DNA of 64,000 nt from Effusibacillus pohliae DSM 22757. GTDB lineage: Bacteria; Bacillota; Bacilli; Tumebacillales; Effusibacillaceae. Location: assembly GCF_000376225.1 (NCBI RefSeq), contig NZ_AQXL01000126.1, positions 1 to 64,000 of the forward strand. Direction: 5' to 3'. Both the position numbers and the translations under genes were made by a program. The notes under the pieces were generated by a model, which was not told the DNA's origin, searched no databases, and was given only the letters and a program-made list of their open reading frames with translations. This document shows positions 1 through 9,225 of the stretch, one piece after another (the stretch's first letter is position 1; each line of letters opens with the position of its first letter).

Positions 1-119
1 GGAACATTCGAGTCTACTTGATTGCCATGTGCCAACATGCCGACGCATGGTTGGAAGAAGCAAGAAAAGCGAACCTTCCTTCACTGGACGAATGGTTTGC
101 AAGCCAATTAGCTGCATAG
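1..119 (+). CDS. C-terminal end of an unidentified protein (cut by window edge)
   Basis: An open frame enters the window and stops at TAG 117-119. The visible 38 residues run from NIRVYLIAMC to FASQLAA and look alpha-helical and charged. I do not recognise the family with confidence. The pattern of a Tyr-Leu-Ile-Ala-Met stretch followed by a charged helix resembles the ends of some replication-initiator or mobile-element proteins, but this is only an impression. It lies next to a truncated aldehyde dehydrogenase stub at 263-352, which would fit a mobile element having inserted there. A hairpin follows the stop. Confidence 0.5.
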   Translation, partial: NIRVYLIAMCQHADAWLEEARKANLPSLDEWFASQLAA

Positions 120-146
120 TCACAGGCCTTTTCCATATTTTTTAAA

Positions 147-165
147 AACCCGATATTGTCGGGTT
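147..165 (+). terminator. short hairpin after the first partial gene
   Basis: AACCCGA and TCGGGTT form a perfect 7-bp stem with a 5-nt loop, followed by ATTT. It is placed 28 bp after the stop of the partial gene and could be a weak intrinsic terminator. The stretch 166-262 is AT-rich and I see nothing else in it. Confidence 0.5.
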
Positions 166-262
166 ATTTGGCATGCCCATTTTTTGAAAATGGCTTTCCA
201 AGGTTAACAAAATAGACAATTTTTGACCCATTCACCCCTTGTCCAGACTCGGATTCATCTCT

Positions 263-352
263 CTAATTCCGAGCTACTATCAATTTTTTCGGTCCGCCTT
301 TCAGAAAAGCCTGGACGCGGGGATCAAGCGAGACGGTCGTAGTGGTTGCCAT
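263..352 (-). pseudogene. 5' stub of an aldehyde dehydrogenase gene (29 codons left)
   Basis: On the minus strand, ATG 352-350 follows a strong AAGGAGGAG site. The frame reads MATTTTVSLDPRVQAFL, then KGGPKKLI, then VARN and a stop. The start is typical of NAD-dependent aldehyde dehydrogenases of the Bacillales, which open with a 'PRVQ.FL' helix followed by 'KKL.INGEW'. Homology breaks right after KKLI, so the rest of the enzyme was lost by a deletion or insertion near position 275-280. Its promoter is intact (see 399-414), so a useless peptide may still be made. Family assignment is from memory of such N-termini, not from a search. Confidence 0.65.
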
Positions 353-398
353 GGTAACTCCTCCTTGTTTTTTTGATGATGTGACGCAAAACAGTATT

Positions 399-414
399 TG
401 CAATATTCATGCCA
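399..414 (-). promoter_or_regulatory. sigma-54 (-24/-12) promoter facing the aldehyde dehydrogenase stub
   Basis: Read on the minus strand the site is TGGCATGAATATTGCA. The consensus is TGGCAC-R-N4-TTGCW, so only one conserved base differs and the GG/GC spacing is exact. It lies 47 bp upstream of the stub's ATG. It fits control by the sigma-54 activator encoded divergently at 593-2449. Confidence 0.8.
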
Positions 415-487
415 GCATGAAAACGCTATCTTTTCCAGACGTTTTGCGTGTTCCAAAGTCCCTTGAACTGTACCATAACGGCGCACT

Positions 488-504
488 TGTTCCATTTCGG
501 AACA
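488..504. promoter_or_regulatory. inverted repeat, probable upstream activator site
   Basis: TGTTCC-N5-GGAACA is a perfect 6-bp dyad, 74 bp upstream of the -24 element. This is the usual place for an enhancer-binding protein site. A further TGTTCC half-site occurs at 449-454. The activator of 593-2449 is the obvious candidate to bind it; that link is inference. Confidence 0.55.
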
Positions 505-592
505 CTCGGGTTTTCTTTGGCTAACCTTGTCTAACGAAGGCGGGTAAGGGTATGATTATGGAAAGCGGGAATTTTCAGAAAGGGTGATTGAC

Positions 593-2449
593 GTGCGAAA
601 GTTGATCAATCCTTGTTTGAACAACTCGTGGGAAAGAAGTCGCAAGTACGGCGTGGATCCTTTGCAAGCGAAGGATGCCATATTGGAATCGAACGAATTC
701 AAACAGTTACGGGAACAGAAAGAACCTTTCTTGCGGGAAATCAATCCTACGATCGAACGTTTATACGCTTGGGTCAAATCGTTTTCCTCGACAGCCATCA
801 TTTCGGATACATCTGGGTATATATTGGAGAGGATCGGTGATCCTGCCTTTATGAAGGACACCGACAAAATTCATTTGTTTCAAGGAGCCTGTTGGTCGGA
901 AACGGTCAGGGGCACCAATGCGGTAGGAACGGTCATTATTGAAAAAAAGCCATTGGCCGTAGTTGGGCAAGACCATTACCTGGAAGCGAACCGATATATT
1001 TATTGTGCAGCGTCACCAATATTTGATCCATTGGGGGAACAGGTCGCCGTCTTGGACATCAGCGGCTATTACAACATCTATCATCCTTCTATCCTGGCGA
1101 TGGTGGATGTGATTGCACGAAAAGTTGAAGATTGGATCCTGATTCATGATTCCAACAAACAATTGGTGATCTCCCTCCACCCGCAGCAAAAAAGAGGCCA
1201 GGGGGCTTTATTGCGAGTCAATGAAGAGGGCGTAATCACCGGCGCCAATCGGGAAGCACGCGATTTGTTCGAGCTGGATCAATTGCTGCTTAACGCAGTC
1301 AAGCTTTCAGAGTTTCTGACAGGTGTCGAGTCGCTGCTGCAACGACCGGGCAATCACCCGAATTCTGATGTTTCCGCCGTATATAACAGGAAAGATGACA
1401 ACAACAAATGGTTTGCGTCCGTTCTTGTAGACAAGCGCCCCCTATCGGTTGCATTCACTCAGGATCGAAAAACATCGCTTCCATCGGTCCGGCGCAGTTC
1501 CGTGAAATATACCTTTGCCGATATTTACGGGAATGATCCTGATTTTCTCTCGGTTCTTGAGCTTGCCAAACGGGCGGCGAAAACAGACTACAATATCCTG
1601 GTTACCGGCGAAAGCGGAACAGGAAAAGAGATGGTGAGCCAGGCGATCCATCACGTGAGCAACCGATCCGACAAACCTTTTGTTGCGCTGAACTGTGGGG
1701 CTATAGCAAGAACCTTGATGGAAAGTGAATTGTTCGGATATGAAGCCGGCGCATTCACCGGAGCAAAACAATCCGGCCATCCCGGAAAGATTGAACTTGC
1801 CCACGGAGGAACATTGTTTTTGGATGAAATAGCAGAAATGCCGCTCGAGATGCAAGTGTCCCTGTTACGGGTGCTCCAGGAAAAAACGGTGATTCGGGTC
1901 GGCGGAATCAAACCGATACAGGTGGATGTGCGTATTATTGCGGCAACTCACAAGGACTTATGGGAGGAAGTACAGGCGGGGCGTTTTCGTGCCGATTTGT
2001 TTTACCGGCTGCAGGGGATCCATCTCGTCTTGCCTCCTCTGCGGGATCGCAAAGACCGCCTTGACCTGGCCGCTCACTTGCTTCGGGCTGTAGTGAAGGA
2101 ACTGGGCAGCCCCATGTTATCTTTCTCTGAGGAAGCAACAAAGCTGATCAACCAATATTCATGGCCGGGAAACGTACGAGAGTTGCTGGGATCCTTACGC
2201 CAAGCCGCTTTTCTGGCAACCGACGGGATCATTGACATCCGCCATTTTCCTGCTTATATTCTTAAAAACCGCGCGCCATATGCCGAAACAGCCAGTGCTT
2301 CGCTTGAACAACTGGAACACGAGACGATCCTCCGCATATTGAATACCACCGACGGGAATATCTCGCAGGCGGCACGGATGCTTGGAATCGGTCGCAATAC
2401 CCTGTACCGAAAATTGAAAAAACTAAACCGTACCTACACGACCCAGTGA
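593..2449 (+). CDS. sigma-54-dependent transcriptional activator, AcoR-like
   Basis: About 618 residues. N-terminal GAF-like sensor (about residues 60-170), a PAS-like middle, then an AAA+ domain. Counting from the upstream GTG at 584, it has Walker A GESGTGKE (342-349), the sigma-54 contact loop GAFTGA (389-394) and Walker B TLFLDEI (about 410-416). A Fis-type helix-turn-helix ends the protein (NISQAARMLGIGRNTLYRKL). This is the order of AcoR-type bacterial enhancer-binding proteins that activate acetoin or aldehyde metabolism genes. GTG 593 is chosen because AAAGGGTG lies 7-8 bp upstream; GTG 584 has no ribosome site. Its likely target, a sigma-54-promoted aldehyde dehydrogenase gene divergent from it, is truncated, so the regulator may be orphaned locally. 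Confidence 0.9.
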   Translation: MRKLINPCLNNSWERSRKYGVDPLQAKDAILESNEFKQLREQKEPFLREINPTIERLYAWVKSFSSTAIISDTSGYILERIGDPAFMKDTDKIHLFQGACWSETVRGTNAVGTVIIEKKPLAVVGQDHYLEANRYIYCAASPIFDPLGEQVAVLDISGYYNIYHPSILAMVDVIARKVEDWILIHDSNKQLVISLHPQQKRGQGALLRVNEEGVITGANREARDLFELDQLLLNAVKLSEFLTGVESLLQRPGNHPNSDVSAVYNRKDDNNKWFASVLVDKRPLSVAFTQDRKTSLPSVRRSSVKYTFADIYGNDPDFLSVLELAKRAAKTDYNILVTGESGTGKEMVSQAIHHVSNRSDKPFVALNCGAIARTLMESELFGYEAGAFTGAKQSGHPGKIELAHGGTLFLDEIAEMPLEMQVSLLRVLQEKTVIRVGGIKPIQVDVRIIAATHKDLWEEVQAGRFRADLFYRLQGIHLVLPPLRDRKDRLDLAAHLLRAVVKELGSPMLSFSEEATKLINQYSWPGNVRELLGSLRQAAFLATDGIIDIRHFPAYILKNRAPYAETASASLEQLEHETILRILNTTDGNISQAARMLGIGRNTLYRKLKKLNRTYTTQ

Positions 2450-2592
2450 TCCCGCATTTCTTGCAGCTAACGGAGATTTACGAACCGATCCGGCGGTGAG
2501 GTGTAGAAGCCGCGCCTATCAGCGGCGTCGTCCGCGACTTGCTGAAAAATGCGGATGCAAACTGGCGGTTCACACAAATTGGCGGTTCCCGT

Positions 2593-2620
2593 TTGCGCCA
2601 GCGGCGAAATATGTTATGAT
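2593..2620 (+). promoter_or_regulatory. possible promoter of the lipoprotein gene
   Basis: TTGCGC and TATGAT are separated by 16 bp, about 80 bp before the lipoprotein start. A second TATAAT lies at 2633-2638 but lacks a matching -35. The rest of 2450-2700 has a small GC hairpin near 2503-2526 and no gene I can support. Confidence 0.4.
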
Positions 2621-2701
2621 GTGAATGGCCATATAATAGAGCAATGTAGTAGGGCAAGTTGAGAAAAATGACGCTCCTTGCGAGCAATGGGGGCCCGATT
2701 A

Positions 2702-3187
2702 ATGAAAACAAGGGTCATGACTTGGTTGATCAGTTTTCTTCTTATTAGTGCAATTTCCGCCTGCAGCCCGAAAGAGAGCAATGAACCGCACCCTTCCTCC
2801 TCTCCGAAAGCAGAGCAATCAAACAAGAAAAAATGGGAACCGGTCTCGAGAGCATATAGAATACAAGGGAAAATAGCAAACGTTGTGGTACAAGACGGTC
2901 AATTGAGATCAATCTCGCTTCATGTAACAAAAAACTTGGTGAACAGCAATCCTGTGGATTATGATTTTGTAGGTCAGACGATAGAAGTTCAATTTGAGGA
3001 TGCTCCACTAGATGCGAACCGTTTGAACCGATTGAAGAAAGAAACGGAAATTGCCATCTCCATCGCTCAATATGCTTTACCAGACGGCAAAGTGGTTTGG
3101 GGTGCATTGCCGGAATGGGTATATTTGGTGGTCGATGGCTCTTATGAGGATCTGCAAGGCCAACCTGTGAAGGAATTGCGACCATAA
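2702..3187 (+). CDS. predicted lipoprotein of unknown function
   Basis: About 161 residues. It starts MKTRVMTWLISFLLIS and has a lipobox ending in SAC-S, so it should be lipidated and held on the outer face of the membrane. A Ser/Pro/Lys linker follows, then a compact beta-rich domain containing DYDFVGQTIEVQFEDAP. I do not recognise the domain. ATG 2702 is preferred over a TTG at 2678 because it places a normal signal peptide at the terminus and has a GGGGG tract about 9 bp upstream. It is monocistronic. Confidence 0.75.
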   Translation: MKTRVMTWLISFLLISAISACSPKESNEPHPSSSPKAEQSNKKKWEPVSRAYRIQGKIANVVVQDGQLRSISLHVTKNLVNSNPVDYDFVGQTIEVQFEDAPLDANRLNRLKKETEIAISIAQYALPDGKVVWGALPEWVYLVVDGSYEDLQGQPVKELRP

Positions 3188-3272
3188 AAATGGATTGCAG
3201 ATGAAAGATTCCACTTCAGTAAGTGAAAAATGCGAAGCGGTCGCCAGCCACTTCGCATGTTACTTGAACCAC

Positions 3273-4037
3273 TTAGACGAACTGCTTTTTGTTGGGGTCA
3301 ATGTCCCTTGACACGTTCAGGTCCACAGCAAGACATTCGCCATTATACTTGACGTACACATCCCCGGCGTATTGTCGCATATAAGCGCCAGAGAATGAAG
3401 TGTTATCCAAATTCAAATTATTGATAGAGGCAGTATTTGTGCAGGAAGTTGTAAAGCAATAATTACTGCTTGTATTATAGGATTTTCCTGGGCTGCATTG
3501 ATATTGAGCAACCCACATGTTGGCTCTTCCACCAACCGCATCGTACAATTGTTGTGCAACTGACCCGTTGCTTCCGGCACTACAATAAATTCCTGCCCAA
3601 TATGCTGTCGCTCTGTTGATGTAGCTCACCCAAGCTTTGACGTAATCCACCATGGCTGTCGTATGGAGGTTCCCTCCTTCTACATCCAAGTAAATGACGC
3701 TCAGAGCAGGTGCACCGATTTCGCTAGCAAATTGTGCAGCTTGTTGAGCGTCTTGTTCACCCAAAGTAGTTGCGTTTGAGGTGGTGGGGGCATTGCAGGG
3801 ATATGGTTGATCCTGGCGACCTACATAAATATAGGCCAAATTGTATCCAATATTCTTATATTCGCTGTGCAACGAAGCTGTAAAGCTTATTGCTCTGTTA
3901 TTCGAATCGCGGTCGCCACTCAGATAACAAGGGCCACCAAGGTAAAATCCGTACCAGTAAAAAGGTGTGCCCGTCCACATATTCTGAGCAGTTGTTTTCG
4001 AAATGGCTGGCGCTTTATCAAAACCTTGCCAGGACAT
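3273..4037 (-). CDS. DUF1906 glycoside-hydrolase-like protein (Rv2525c family)
   Basis: 254 residues. The N-terminal WQGFDKAP and the pattern of YGFYLGG, VIYLDVEG and AYWAGIYCS match the DUF1906 TIM-barrel family, related to GH25-type lysozymes and typified by Rv2525c. LDVEG holds acidic residues where such barrels carry the catalytic Asp/Glu. No signal peptide is visible, so export, if any, is by another route or by lysis. It is the last gene of a reverse operon headed by a two-part sigma factor, with 2 bp between it and the 49-residue gene. That points to regulated production of a cell-wall-active or surface protein. The role is inferred; the fold call is fairly firm. Confidence 0.75.
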   Translation of the reverse strand: MSWQGFDKAPAISKTTAQNMWTGTPFYWYGFYLGGPCYLSGDRDSNNRAISFTASLHSEYKNIGYNLAYIYVGRQDQPYPCNAPTTSNATTLGEQDAQQAAQFASEIGAPALSVIYLDVEGGNLHTTAMVDYVKAWVSYINRATAYWAGIYCSAGSNGSVAQQLYDAVGGRANMWVAQYQCSPGKSYNTSSNYCFTTSCTNTASINNLNLDNTSFSGAYMRQYAGDVYVKYNGECLAVDLNVSRDIDPNKKQFV

Positions 4038-4039
4038 AG

Positions 4040-4189
4040 TTACTTTTCTCCCCCTTGCTTTGTCGCTGGATGTTCTTGTTCACGTAATTCCTGCAGCAAG
4101 TCTTCATACTTTTTTGCTTTTTCTTTCCATTCAAGCAAGAGATCCTCCGAAACGATCACCTTTCCCGGTGAATGAGGTTCAAAAATCAT
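4040..4189 (-). CDS. 49-residue protein between sigma gene and DUF1906 gene
   Basis: The frame starts MIFEPHSPGKVIVSEDLL and ends KQGGEK. The middle is a charged heptad-like helix with WKEKAKKYEDLLQEL, likely a short coiled coil. Its start overlaps the last 11 bases of the upstream sigma-region-4 gene, and its stop is 2 bp from the DUF1906 ATG, so the three are probably translationally coupled. I do not recognise it. It could be a partner or chaperone for the DUF1906 protein, or a regulator of the sigma factor. The tight packing and codon pattern argue that it is real. Confidence 0.65.
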   Translation of the reverse strand: MIFEPHSPGKVIVSEDLLLEWKEKAKKYEDLLQELREQEHPATKQGGEK

Positions 4190-4595
4190 AATTATTAACC
4201 TCCTCGAAATATTTTCTGAGTCTTCTTAATGCTCTCCCTTTCATTCTGTTTACTGCTTGTTTGGTTGTTCCCATTTGGAGTGCCACTTCCTGTTCCGGTG
4301 TTCCCTCTAAAATCGTTGCTTTAATCACCGCTTGTTGAGGGAATGTCAATAATTTGAAGACTTCTTCAAGGGAAATCAGATCCTCCATCTCAGCAGGTGT
4401 GTCATTTGCCGCAGCAATTTGATCGATCATCTCCGTCTCTTCCGAATCGGCGTGAAGACGTTGATTCAAAATCAACAGTTCATGTTGTCTGACTCGATTT
4501 TGTCGGCGAGCCAACCTGGCAGTTTCACGGCGCAATCCTGTTAGAAACCATGCGGCGATTCTGGCCTCTTCCAAAGAGAGTTCATAAGCGTTCAT
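4179..4595 (-). CDS. sigma region-4 subunit of a split sigma factor (SigO/YvrI-like)
   Basis: 138 residues from an ATG with GGAGGTGATTAGA upstream. The C-terminal half carries a sigma region 4 signature: LLTFPQQAVIKATILEG, then the helix-turn-helix EQEVALQMGTTKQAVNRMKGRALRRLRKYF, which should bind a -35 element. There is no region 2 in this protein; that part seems to be supplied by the gene upstream (4692-4901). In B. subtilis, SigO (YvrI) and RsoA (YvrHa) form a two-subunit sigma of this kind. Here the pair heads an operon with a DUF1906 gene. The UviA/Xpf type of phage sigma is the alternative. Confidence 0.7.
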   Translation of the reverse strand: MNAYELSLEEARIAAWFLTGLRRETARLARRQNRVRQHELLILNQRLHADSEETEMIDQIAAANDTPAEMEDLISLEEVFKLLTFPQQAVIKATILEGTPEQEVALQMGTTKQAVNRMKGRALRRLRKYFEEVNNYDF

Positions 4596-4691
4596 TCTAA
4601 TCACCTCCAATCCTCTTTTGTTTGGTGTTCTATAGAATAAAGAGAAAATAGGAGTTGTTTTGACAACTTCCTATTTGTAAAAATGGTGAGC

Positions 4692-4901
4692 CTAATTCTT
4701 TGTTTTATTTTCCTTCTCTAATATGTGAAGTGGAAAACGATTAACGGTTTTGATCATCCATTCCACTAAATCCGAATAGGCTTCTTCGTAGCCCAGGCGG
4801 CGGCTGTATTTTCTGATTGCAGGCATGAATCGTTGGATGATTGCGGCTAGCGCATCCTTATCCCCATTTTTTGCTCTGACCACCATTTCCCGAAGAGTCA
4901 C
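4692..4901 (-). CDS. sigma region-2-like subunit of a split sigma factor (RsoA-like)
   Basis: 69 residues, GTG start. VVRAKNGDKDALAAIIQRF followed by MPAIRKYSRRLGYEEAYSDL and a WMIKTV helix matches the helix-turn-helix/sigma region-2-like family found as RsoA and in small conjugative-element regulators. It should bind the core RNA polymerase clamp and the -10 element when paired with the region-4 protein encoded 96 bp downstream. No clear ribosome site precedes the GTG. An internal ATG five codons later is possible. Confidence 0.65.
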   Translation of the reverse strand: MTLREMVVRAKNGDKDALAAIIQRFMPAIRKYSRRLGYEEAYSDLVEWMIKTVNRFPLHILEKENKTKN

Positions 4902-5088
4902 GTTCCGATTTATATGATTTTTTGGACACCCTTTCTGAGGTTGGAGTATGGCGTTTCACAAAACAGAATTGTAAATTACTTATAATATACAATTTATTAT
5001 TTTATAATGTTCGGGATGTTGATCTGGTTTGTTTGACGATTCCAAAGCGGTCGCTTGGGAGAGAATTTTGAAGCGAGCAATTTTCGTA
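4902..5088. other. AT-rich intergenic region
   Basis: Holds an AT-rich block near 4970-5010 (TATAATATACAATTTATTATTTTATAATG) that could supply promoters for the reverse sigma operon. I see no gene here. Confidence 0.4.
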
Positions 5089-5117
5089 TTTACTGAAAAC
5101 AGAGAATATGCTATGAT
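5089..5117 (+). promoter_or_regulatory. promoter of the fadNAE operon
   Basis: TTTACT (5089-5094) and TATGAT (5112-5117) are 17 bp apart. The -10 directly abuts the FadR-like dyad, so a bound repressor would block initiation. Confidence 0.55.
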
Positions 5118-5118
5118 A

Positions 5119-5136
5119 TGAATGACCATTCAGTCA
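5119..5136. promoter_or_regulatory. FadR-type operator
   Basis: TGAATG-AC-CATTCA is a perfect dyad, with a flanking GTCA that also mirrors the inner TGAC. It closely follows the Bacillus FadR box (TGAATGA...TCATTCA), a TetR-family repressor site released by long-chain acyl-CoA. Its position just after the -10 of a fadNAE operon supports the assignment. No FadR gene is in this window; the TetR at 19901 has a different nearby operator. Confidence 0.75.
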
Positions 5137-5299
5137 AAGATTTTCCTTCCAACCGTTCGGTTGCGCGGGGGGTGTTAATGACTGGATCTGGTCCATAGAC
5201 ATGTAGCAATGAGGTCTATCAGAAGCACTGGACACAGAATTGTTACAATTCGGGTGCCCGCCATAACGTGACCTGGCGCAATCGAGCTTCTCGACAATA

Positions 5300-5313
5300 T
5301 GTAAGCGCTTTGC
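5300..5313 (+). promoter_or_regulatory. cre-like catabolite repression site in the fadN leader
   Basis: TGTAAGCGCTTTGC matches 12 of 14 positions of the CcpA consensus TGTAANCGNTTNCA. It lies about 125 bp upstream of fadN, inside the long leader (5137-5417), fitting roadblock repression. The leader holds no gene I can support. Confidence 0.55.
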
Positions 5314-5423
5314 TTGCGGTTCCGGCAGCATGGCGAGCCTGCTGTTTTGGGATTGTCGGCGCAGCGGGTCAGTTGCGGGTAAGGCCGTCGCGTTGGCGGG
5401 TGGATCGATGAGGAGGTATGGGG

Positions 5424-7814
5424 ATGGATTTTGCGGTGAAAAAAGTGGCCGTGATCGGTTCCGGCGTAATGGGATCGGGAATCGCGGCACATCTTGCGAA
5501 TGTGGGAATCCCATCGTATTTGCTGGATATCGTTCCGAAGGAACTGACGGAACAGGAAGTGCGAAAAGGGCTGACGATTGACCATCCGCAGGTGCGCAAC
5601 CGGTTTGCGCTGGCCGCCAAGGAACGGCTGCTCAAGTCAAAACCGGCACTGCTGTACACGCCGGAAAACGTTGACCTGATCACTCCAGGCAACCTGGAAG
5701 ATGATCTGGCGGTGCTGTCGGAAGTCGACTGGATCATCGAAGTGGTCGTCGAAAATCTGGAAGTCAAGCAGCAATTGTTCGAAAAAATCGAGCAAGTATG
5801 GAAACCGGGCACGATCGTTTCCTCCAACACGTCCGGCATTTCCATCAATCGGATGTCGGAACGGTGCAGCAAGCCATTCCGGGAACATTTCCTCGGCACC
5901 CATTTCTTCAATCCCGTCCGCTATATGAAACTGTTAGAGGTGATCCCCTGCACCGAAACGAAACCGGAACTGGTCGAGTTCATGGTCAACTTCGGAGAAC
6001 GGGTGCTCGGCAAAGGAGTCGTCGTCTGCAAAGACACCGTCAACTTTATCGCGAACCGCATCGGTACCTATGGACTGATGGTCACCGTTCAAGAGATGGT
6101 GAAAAACGGCCTCGGCATCGACGATGTGGACGCAATTACAGGACCGGTTATGGGCCGTCCCAAGTCGGCCACCTTCCGAACGCTCGATCTGGTTGGGCTT
6201 GACACGTTTGTCCACGTTGCTAATAACGTGCACGCAAATGTGGCCGACCGGGATGAAAAAGCTGCGTTTGTAGTGCCGGAATTTATGCAACAGATGGTGC
6301 AGCGCGGCTGGCTGGGCGAGAAAACGAAACAGGGTTTTTACAAAAAAGAAGGCAAGGACATCCTGGCCCTCGATTACAACACGCTGGAATACCGGCCGAA
6401 GCAAAAGCCGCAGTTCGCATCGCTGGAAGCGGCCAAGCTGCAAAAAGACACGAAGGAGAAACTGCGCGCTCTCGTCTACGGACAGGACGCTGCCAGCTTA
6501 TTCGCTTGGGGCGTGTTAAAGCGGGTGCTGTTGTACACCGCAGAACGGGTGGATGAAATCGCCGATGACATCGTCAGCATCGACAAGGCGATGAAGTGGG
6601 GGTTCAACTGGCAACTCGGTCCGTTCGAAACATGGGATGCGATCGGTCTGGATAAATCGCTCGCACGCATGAAGCAAGAAGGTGAAACGATTCCGGACTG
6701 GGTGGAAGAGATGGTCGCATCCGGTAAAACTTCCTTCTATACGAAGGAGGGGGGAGTCAAATCTTTCTACATGCCGAAAGGCGAATACAAGGAAATCGAG
6801 GAGCAGAAAGAGATCATTGATCTGCAGGTGTTGAAAGAGCAGGGCAAGACGATCAGGTCGAACAGTGGGGCGTCGCTGATCGATATCGGCGACGGCATCG
6901 CCTGTCTCGAATTCCACTCCCCGAACCAGGCGATCGGCGCTGACATCACGCTGATGATCAATCAGGCGTGTGAGGAAGTGTCGAAGAACTGGCGGGGCCT
7001 GGTGATCGGCAACCAGGCGAAAAACTTTTGCGTCGGCGCCAACCTGATGCTGCTCCTGATGGAAGCGCAGGACGAGAACTGGGACGACATCAACTGGACG
7101 GTCAAGCAGTTCCAGGATACGCTGATGCGCCTGAAATATCTTGACAAGCCGGTCGTGGCTGCTCCGTTTGCGATGACGCTCGGTGGCGGGATCGAAGTCT
7201 GCTTCCCGGCGGACCGCATTCAGGCGGCGGCGGAAAGCTACATCGGGCTGGTCGAAGTGGGAGTCGGCCTGATCCCGGGCGGTGGTGGCAACAAAGAACT
7301 GTTGATTCGCCACACCGAGTCGGTGCAGGATCAGAAAGACGCCGATCTGCAACCGCTGGTCAACAAGACGTTTGAAACGATCGCGATGGCGAAAGTGTCC
7401 ACCTCCGGGTACGACGCAAAAAAATTGGGCTATCTGCGGCGGGAAGACGGCATCACCGTCAACAACGACTATCTGCTGCACGACGCGAAACAAACGGCGC
7501 TCGCGCTGGCCAACGCAGGCTACAAGCCGCCTCAGAAGAAAAAGATTCGGGTGGTCGGGGAACCCGGATACGCGGTCATGAAAATCGCCGCTTATACGAT
7601 GAAACAGTCCGGCTACATCTCCGATCACGATCTGAAGATCGCCGACAAACTGGCGTTTGTGTTGGCTGGCGGCCGGGTCCCGGCAAACACCTGGGTGACG
7701 GAAGAATACCTGCTCGATCTCGAACGGGAAGCGTTCCTGAGCCTGTGCGGCGAACCGAAGTCGCAGGAACGGATGCAGCACATGCTGACCAAAGGCAAAC
7801 CTTTGCGCAACTAG
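5424..7814 (+). CDS. fadN: 3-hydroxyacyl-CoA dehydrogenase / enoyl-CoA hydratase
   Basis: 796 residues. The N-terminal NAD-binding Rossmann motif is VIGSGVMGSGIAAHLANVG, followed by the 3HCDH C-terminal domains (about 180-400). An enoyl-CoA hydratase/crotonase-type domain fills the C-terminal half, with NFCVGANLMLL (oxyanion loop) and GLVEVGVGLIPGGGG. This dehydrogenase-first order is that of Bacillus FadN, not E. coli FadB. It catalyses two central steps of beta-oxidation in the cytosol. ATG 5424 is preferred: GAGGAGGT lies about 7 bp upstream, while ATG 5418 touches the ribosome site. It heads fadN-fadA-fadE. Confidence 0.95.
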   Translation: MDFAVKKVAVIGSGVMGSGIAAHLANVGIPSYLLDIVPKELTEQEVRKGLTIDHPQVRNRFALAAKERLLKSKPALLYTPENVDLITPGNLEDDLAVLSEVDWIIEVVVENLEVKQQLFEKIEQVWKPGTIVSSNTSGISINRMSERCSKPFREHFLGTHFFNPVRYMKLLEVIPCTETKPELVEFMVNFGERVLGKGVVVCKDTVNFIANRIGTYGLMVTVQEMVKNGLGIDDVDAITGPVMGRPKSATFRTLDLVGLDTFVHVANNVHANVADRDEKAAFVVPEFMQQMVQRGWLGEKTKQGFYKKEGKDILALDYNTLEYRPKQKPQFASLEAAKLQKDTKEKLRALVYGQDAASLFAWGVLKRVLLYTAERVDEIADDIVSIDKAMKWGFNWQLGPFETWDAIGLDKSLARMKQEGETIPDWVEEMVASGKTSFYTKEGGVKSFYMPKGEYKEIEEQKEIIDLQVLKEQGKTIRSNSGASLIDIGDGIACLEFHSPNQAIGADITLMINQACEEVSKNWRGLVIGNQAKNFCVGANLMLLLMEAQDENWDDINWTVKQFQDTLMRLKYLDKPVVAAPFAMTLGGGIEVCFPADRIQAAAESYIGLVEVGVGLIPGGGGNKELLIRHTESVQDQKDADLQPLVNKTFETIAMAKVSTSGYDAKKLGYLRREDGITVNNDYLLHDAKQTALALANAGYKPPQKKKIRVVGEPGYAVMKIAAYTMKQSGYISDHDLKIADKLAFVLAGGRVPANTWVTEEYLLDLEREAFLSLCGEPKSQERMQHMLTKGKPLRN

Positions 7815-7837
7815 GAAAAATGAACTGGAACCTCTAT

Positions 7838-8029
7838 GGGTCCCGGCAAGTCAGCCGGAAGACGGATGATTTTCGGGACCCCGCGGAACCGGGCGGGGAA
7901 GTGATTGGGGTCCCCGCAAAGTACTCGGAATTGGCTTCAAAGCTTCGCTTCACTTTACGGGGCATAATTAGGGGGCCCCACGAAAGTAATCGGAATACGC
8001 TTCGTAGCTTTACGTCACTTTCGTGGGGT
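7838..8029. repeat. block of three related hairpin repeats between fadN and fadA
   Basis: Three degenerate copies lie in tandem: 7838-7881, 7907-7964 and 7971-8029. Each has G/C arms, then an AAGT(A), then CGGA, and ends with a complementary arm. The best copy pairs CCCCACGAAAGT (7976-7987) with ACTTTCGTGGGG (8017-8028), 12 bp perfect, around a 29-nt loop that contains CGCTTCGTAGC. The first copy pairs GGGTCCCG with CGGGACCC. A fourth copy lies between tRNA genes at 37704-37755. The block widens the fadN-fadA gap to 235 bp and could form mRNA-processing or attenuating stems. Confidence 0.8.
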
Positions 8030-8049
8030 ATTTTTAGGGAGGGAACGGA

Positions 8050-9225
<1,176 letters not shown>

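Follow-up and report, generated by a model that had tools for sequence, protein, structure and literature searches.

A predicted two-subunit sigma factor encoded with a signal-less DUF1906 protein in Effusibacillus pohliae, and related split sigma genes beside wall-hydrolase genes in other Bacilli

Why should a bacterium divide one sigma factor between two genes and set the pair beside a gene for a cell-wall-hydrolase-like protein? The question is raised by a block of small minus-strand genes in a 64,000-nt stretch of Effusibacillus pohliae DSM 22757 (contig NZ_AQXL01000126.1, positions 1 to 64,000; hereafter the window). An earlier note had described four open reading frames (ORFs) here, read from 4901 down to 3273: separate sigma region-2-like and region-4-like proteins, a 49-residue protein and a DUF1906 protein. 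All four are present, at those coordinates and on that strand, and a convergent lipoprotein gene that the note had missed is also part of the module (Table 1). Our preferred reading, to which we give a probability of about 0.5, is a self-contained control module in which a private, self-amplifying two-subunit sigma factor would drive a wall hydrolase that lacks a signal peptide, the lipoprotein being a likely protector. The two-piece sigma factor, the gene linkage and, in relatives, the promoter wiring are well supported.

In SigO-RsoA (YvrI-YvrHa) of Bacillus subtilis, two adjacent genes encode small proteins, one with the sigma-2 part and the other with the sigma-4 part; transcription requires both, and their own operon is among the targets (PMC8103513, PMC10028694). 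Named previously as the analogue, this system is indeed the closest relative of the window pair, in which the two parts likewise lie on separate adjacent genes. The first product matched HTH_16 and, weakly, region 2 of SigY; the second matched Sigma70_r4_2 (scores in Table 1), in agreement with the sigma assignments already made. Against TIGR02937, a model of extracytoplasmic function (ECF) sigma factors, the larger piece alone aligned with positions 50–164 (38.3 bits), whereas the two chains concatenated covered positions 1–164 of 165 (42.2 bits); the larger subunits of two relatives start at positions 38 (genome G068) and 37 (G060). From these alignments of single and joined chains we assign regions 2.1–2.2 to the first chain, and a 2.3–2.4-like helix plus region 4 to the second. 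By profile, then, the break is predicted to fall inside domain 2, and the two parts to form jointly one complete sigma factor. The earlier description of the proteins as region-2-like and region-4-like was right as to two chains, but incomplete for the second, which also carries 2.3–2.4-like sequence.

A stop codon and 96 nt separate the two sigma ORFs, so the pair does not have the one-chain form of group V sigma factors (UviA/TcdR). Nor is the smaller subunit an RsoA orthologue: the RsoA equivalog model NF041489 (cut-off 100 bits) scored 13.7 bits for the window, 26.3 for G068 and 33.9 for G060, and the window differs from SigO-RsoA in placing the sigma-2 gene first. By eye, neither oxdC-yvrL nor yvrJ was recognised among the ORFs of window positions 1–9000. 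Homologues of the sigma-2 gene were found at loci L010 (9434–9724), L067, L091 and L097; in L067 a gene for YvrJ, a member of the SigO-RsoA regulon, sits between the two sigma genes. The sigma-4 subunit was the best match of 15 genomes in the sigma-4 search described below. A further region-4 match from a genome-contig scan with this subunit (L002) was read by eye, found to be unrelated and dropped.

The sigma-4 ORF had been given as 4179–4610. The gene exists, but its start is taken to be ATG 4595, behind GGAGGTGATTAG, because TTG 4610 overlaps that ribosome site. A hairpin lies between the sigma genes, so that the coupling of the first gene to those behind it may be incomplete. The 49-residue protein had no family match above cut-off, yet a homologue stands in G068, a genome of another family (L010 11903–12049; 26/48 identical). 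With pN 0.27 against pS 0.76 between the two genes, this ORF is therefore a real gene under purifying selection. It was found only in the window and G068, so the tiny third protein of the earlier note is genuine but no general part of such modules.

The product of the last gene belongs to DUF1906 and also exceeds the Glyco_hydro_25 threshold (Table 1); together with a DxE motif (D118/E120, kept in G068 and G130), it has the sequence marks of a GH25 muramidase, and it probably hydrolyses peptidoglycan. The G068 homologue is 78% identical. A predicted structure (AlphaFold) had a pLDDT of 46, too weak for placing an active site. Rv2525c, of the same DUF1906/Rv2525c-like family as the solved structure 1sfs, is exported by Tat; the window protein, in contrast, has no signal peptide (best N-terminal hydropathy 0.40, no lipobox). 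Such a protein might instead be a cytoplasmic glycan-binding or regulatory protein, with the module sensing wall fragments. The missing signal peptide would suit that role, as would the loss of DxE from Brevibacillus DUF1906 members, and we know of no proof of hydrolase activity for 1sfs or Rv2525c-type proteins. We nevertheless consider a sensor unlikely, since DxE is present in the window, G068 and G130 proteins, and established hydrolase families are served by the same sigma type and promoter (below).

Facing the hydrolase gene tail to tail is the lipoprotein gene, whose lipobox ends at residue 21 of a lipoprotein signal. N-terminal hydrophobic signals were present in the lipoproteins and absent from the hydrolases. 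Lipoproteins of the same type face the DUF1906 genes of G068 (35%) and G130 (23%). The predicted structure (pLDDT mostly ~90 across residues 51–160) matched OB folds in VIA-align with Z up to 7.6, an arrangement that is widespread, says nothing of function and does not give the protein a lysozyme-inhibitor identity; Foldseek found no match in the PDB at E 0.001 or better.

We then asked how far this linkage recurs. Of the 399 genomes of the class, 68 contain DUF1906, and ~12 kb was read around nearly all of its places. In nine genomes, which belong to five families, a DUF1906 gene had a split pair or its remains no more than ~2 kb away (the window's own, G068, G130, G179, G185 twice, G231, G269, G060 and G156). 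The sigma-2 gene of G179 and the second of G130 were recovered by a profile built without them. Decay was seen in G179, where the sigma-4 copy of L069 is frameshifted, and in G060, where the DUF1906 gene has decayed; an intact sigma-2 gene was not found in G156. All five genes occur, rearranged, in G068: the 49-residue, hydrolase and convergent lipoprotein genes are there, with the pair in the order sigma-4, sigma-2 beyond the lipoprotein gene. Thus the four-gene order, for which a conservation survey had been proposed, was not kept in any relative found, but the gene set was. The recurring partner in relatives is the lipoprotein, usually convergent. A split sigma pair might stand beside an unrelated hydrolase gene by chance, and most DUF1906 genes do lack a nearby pair; this is very improbable, however, and already contradicted by recurrence across families and hydrolase types with a common promoter motif.

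When 15 genomes were searched with the sigma-4 subunits, short sigma-4 genes proved numerous in those of Brevibacillus type (the genus assignment is inferred). Twenty regions were fetched on the sigma match alone and then checked for neighbouring hydrolases. In six, a Pfam-supported wall hydrolase adjoins the pair: Hydrolase_2 (SleB-like/CwlJ-type) in L158, L159, L163 and L171 (L159 assigned by near identity with L163), Phage_lysozyme in L161 and glucosaminidase in L175. Assuming 50 such genes per 6-Mb genome, a randomly chosen position would have one within 2 kb in ~3% of cases, which puts 6/20 far beyond chance. The proposed tie of a split sigma to a cell-wall-type hydrolase is thus found again in other genomes, for DUF1906 and for other enzymes. 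With many copies in relatives, each beside a different wall-cutting enzyme, control by a two-part sigma factor appears to be common for such enzymes and not a one-off. Lipoprotein genes stand beside the hydrolase or sigma gene in L161, L162, L175, L090, L091 and L094. In three of the 20 regions, DUF3238 proteins are encoded beside split sigma-4 genes (L165 5919–6500, L169 5555–6136 and L170 3264–3842), and one further region of the 20, L174, has a BhlA holin gene.

The shared regulatory signal, GTTNN-N18-WCCTA, often followed by GATAGGTGAAAGCGAC, lies upstream of hydrolase genes and several sigma-4 genes. There were 22 sites against 4.05 expected in 203 kb of loci, a count that includes some of the sites from which the motif was drawn and is not independent of them. 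Most sites are 17–109 nt upstream of a sigma-4 gene or of a hydrolase gene belonging to any of six types not related to each other (DUF1906, Hydrolase_2, lysozyme, glucosaminidase, DUF3238 and an unnamed 146-residue gene). The DUF3238 genes so preceded are those of L165 and L169; DUF3238 may be a lytic enzyme. In L174, outside the motif derivation, the best site scored 21.2, where shuffled sequence reached a maximum of 9.2 on average, and stands upstream of sigma-4. This locus (L174 4053–5726, genome G053) holds a split sigma-4 gene with a BhlA/UviB-type holin gene ~1 kb downstream, and a weaker site (10.4) lies 61 nt upstream of the latter. In the window, GTTTT-N18-ACCTCA differs from the Brevibacillus motif at one position and is on the correct strand; G068 carries a one-mismatch copy directly upstream of its sigma-4 gene (0.04 expected). 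We regard these two sites as suggestive. The earlier claim that the sigma is dedicated to its hydrolase is therefore backed by a shared promoter motif only in the Brevibacillus-type loci, and in the window no more than suggested.

Phage_lysozyme and BhlA holin genes (L161 and L174), the YvrJ gene of L067 and the endolysin-like, signal-less character of the enzymes are also what a domesticated phage lysis cassette would offer, with a late sigma (as Xpf or UviA), a holin-like peptide and endolysins serving programmed lysis or content release and not warfare. The Xpf sigma of the PBSX element is likewise dedicated to a lysis-type output (PMC10141391), but is one chain and accompanied by phage structural genes, none of which we noticed in the ORF lists around our loci. 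Group V sigma factors (UviA/TcdR/BotR, with UviB/TcdE holins) offer a similar likeness, an ECF-like sigma for a local secreted or released product and, in L174, a holin of the BhlA/UviB type after a promoter site; they too are single chains where the window has two. The window hydrolase had no match in 50,697 phage records or in viral contigs, and a phage origin would leave the recurring lipoprotein unexplained. We regard this alternative as rather unlikely. In a plasmid collection, neither the hydrolase nor the DNA of the block was matched.

The Hydrolase_2 enzymes of the SleB/CwlJ type at four loci, in hosts presumably of spore-forming lineages, point to another possibility: a sporulation or germination module, in which signal-less hydrolases would be supplied by the mother cell, as CwlJ, and the lipoprotein would sit in spore membranes. 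Sporadic presence argues against it, with this DUF1906 type in 1/41 genomes of the family of G130 and 1/39 of that of G068, as do a member with a phage-type lysozyme and the low G+C island in which the block lies (43–46% against 54% for the window). We hold this role to be quite unlikely. Neither the hydrolase nor the sigma-4 subunit has a close relative in the three congeneric genomes. In one of these sister genomes, homology to the window begins at 5082, in the region upstream of fadB, which left no exact empty site to be delimited. The stretch 5082–5165, which precedes the fadB-like gene and is 90% identical in a sister genome, contains the palindrome GAATGACCATTC, which resembles a TetR-type operator.

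Genome G130 carries three hydrolase/lipoprotein pairs in tandem (L011 1–7500, contig C55). Each hydrolase gene is preceded by a 52-nt leader that can form a GAGGGGC/GCCCCTC hairpin, and at each lipoprotein gene a 300-nt repeat takes in the signal-peptide part and the region upstream. The three lipoproteins have one common signal peptide and unrelated bodies, each facing a different hydrolase; the third enzyme, which Pfam did not match, is called a hydrolase solely by place and resemblance. In G179 the leader occurs three times (L069, L125 and L126); it matched no Rfam entry in either genome. Flanks that stay constant while the pair between them varies suggest a joint exchange of enzyme and lipoprotein, as would fit cognate partners. 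A tentative extension, possible although we put the odds against it, is that such loci are widespread, unrecognised weapon or lysis cassettes of Bacilli, with a private two-chain sigma, a signal-less lytic enzyme and a cognate lipoprotein protector, the enzyme and lipoprotein body being exchanged together between constant flanks (leader hairpin and signal peptide), as in the three-cassette array of G130.

For the control module that we prefer, the following course may be envisaged. The two small proteins would associate into one alternative sigma factor (2.1–2.2 on one chain, 2.3–2.4 and 4 on the other) that would direct RNA polymerase to its own promoter, giving self-amplification and expression of the hydrolase gene downstream. 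The enzyme, lacking an export signal, would fold in the cytoplasm and reach peptidoglycan once the membrane is opened by a holin-like peptide or by lysis; the surface lipoprotein would protect the cell's own wall or restrain its cognate enzyme. Pairing of the chains, hydrolysis, release route and protection are inferred.

Several observations weigh against this reading. The window promoter site is one mismatch off, with 0.02 such sites expected per 180 nt (14 in 64 kb, both strands), and came from a relaxed consensus only, a position-weight scan with the Brevibacillus motif having given no significant site in the block. No holin-like gene was seen in the block, such peptides being seen only in relatives. 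About 85% of DUF1906 places in the class have no nearby split pair, and the solved DUF1906 structure, 1sfs, is listed merely as a hypothetical protein. At the SleB-like loci L158, L159 and L163 the convergent secreted protein has no lipobox, and four orthologous Brevibacillus-type pairs (L164, L168, L172 and L173) have no hydrolase.

The papers that we found describe no two-subunit sigma factor besides SigO-RsoA, whose known purpose is tied to oxalate decarboxylase; in the searched literature, a limited test of mostly non-subscription papers, a split sigma factor was nowhere linked to DUF1906 or another hydrolase. If many relatives of SigO-RsoA drive lytic enzymes, the split has a likely reason in an AND gate, by which a dangerous product would stay off until the cell makes both halves. 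DUF1906 and DUF3238 would gain candidate functions, the lipoproteins would become candidate lysin inhibitors in Gram-positive bacteria, and the promoter motif would be testable.

Table 1. Features of the module in the window (positions are those of the window).
Feature	Position	Strand	Remarks
Predicted sigma domain-2 subunit, RsoA-like (regions 2.1–2.2)	4692..4901	-	GTG start; 69 aa; PF12645 36.9 bits (cut-off 22)
Predicted sigma subunit, 2.3–2.4-like helix + region 4	4179..4595	-	ATG start; strong ribosome-binding site; 138 aa; PF08281 25.9 bits (cut-off 25.7)
49-aa protein	4040..4189	-	Overlaps sigma gene by 11 nt; hydrolase gene almost abutting
DUF1906/Rv2525c, GH25-like protein without signal peptide	3273..4037	-	PF08924 63.8 bits (gathering cut-off 27.2); PF01183 30.1 bits (threshold 27)
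Convergent lipoprotein, predicted OB-fold domain	2702..3187	+	Lipobox ISAC; homologues beside DUF1906 genes in G068 and G130
Terminator-like hairpin 3' of hydrolase gene, between convergent genes	3230..3258	-	11-pair stem, T tail
Hairpin between both sigma genes, possible attenuator	4647..4675	-	Fold of 4605–4700, -16.9 kcal/mol, z -1.85; weak
Candidate promoter GTTTT-N18-ACCTCA	4936..4964	-	~40 nt upstream of sigma-2 start; suggestive only

Rfam gave nothing credible in the block, and PADLOC models of anti-phage defence matched none of its five proteins. At the loci L164, L168, L172 and L173, the pair stands at the same place in four genomes and is followed by small membrane proteins and a 217-residue protein. 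The window's own genome has a second short sigma-4-like gene (G000:C119:55713–56003; L177 4196–4639), which adjoins a 160-residue gene resembling, by eye, YkuK-type RNase H proteins.
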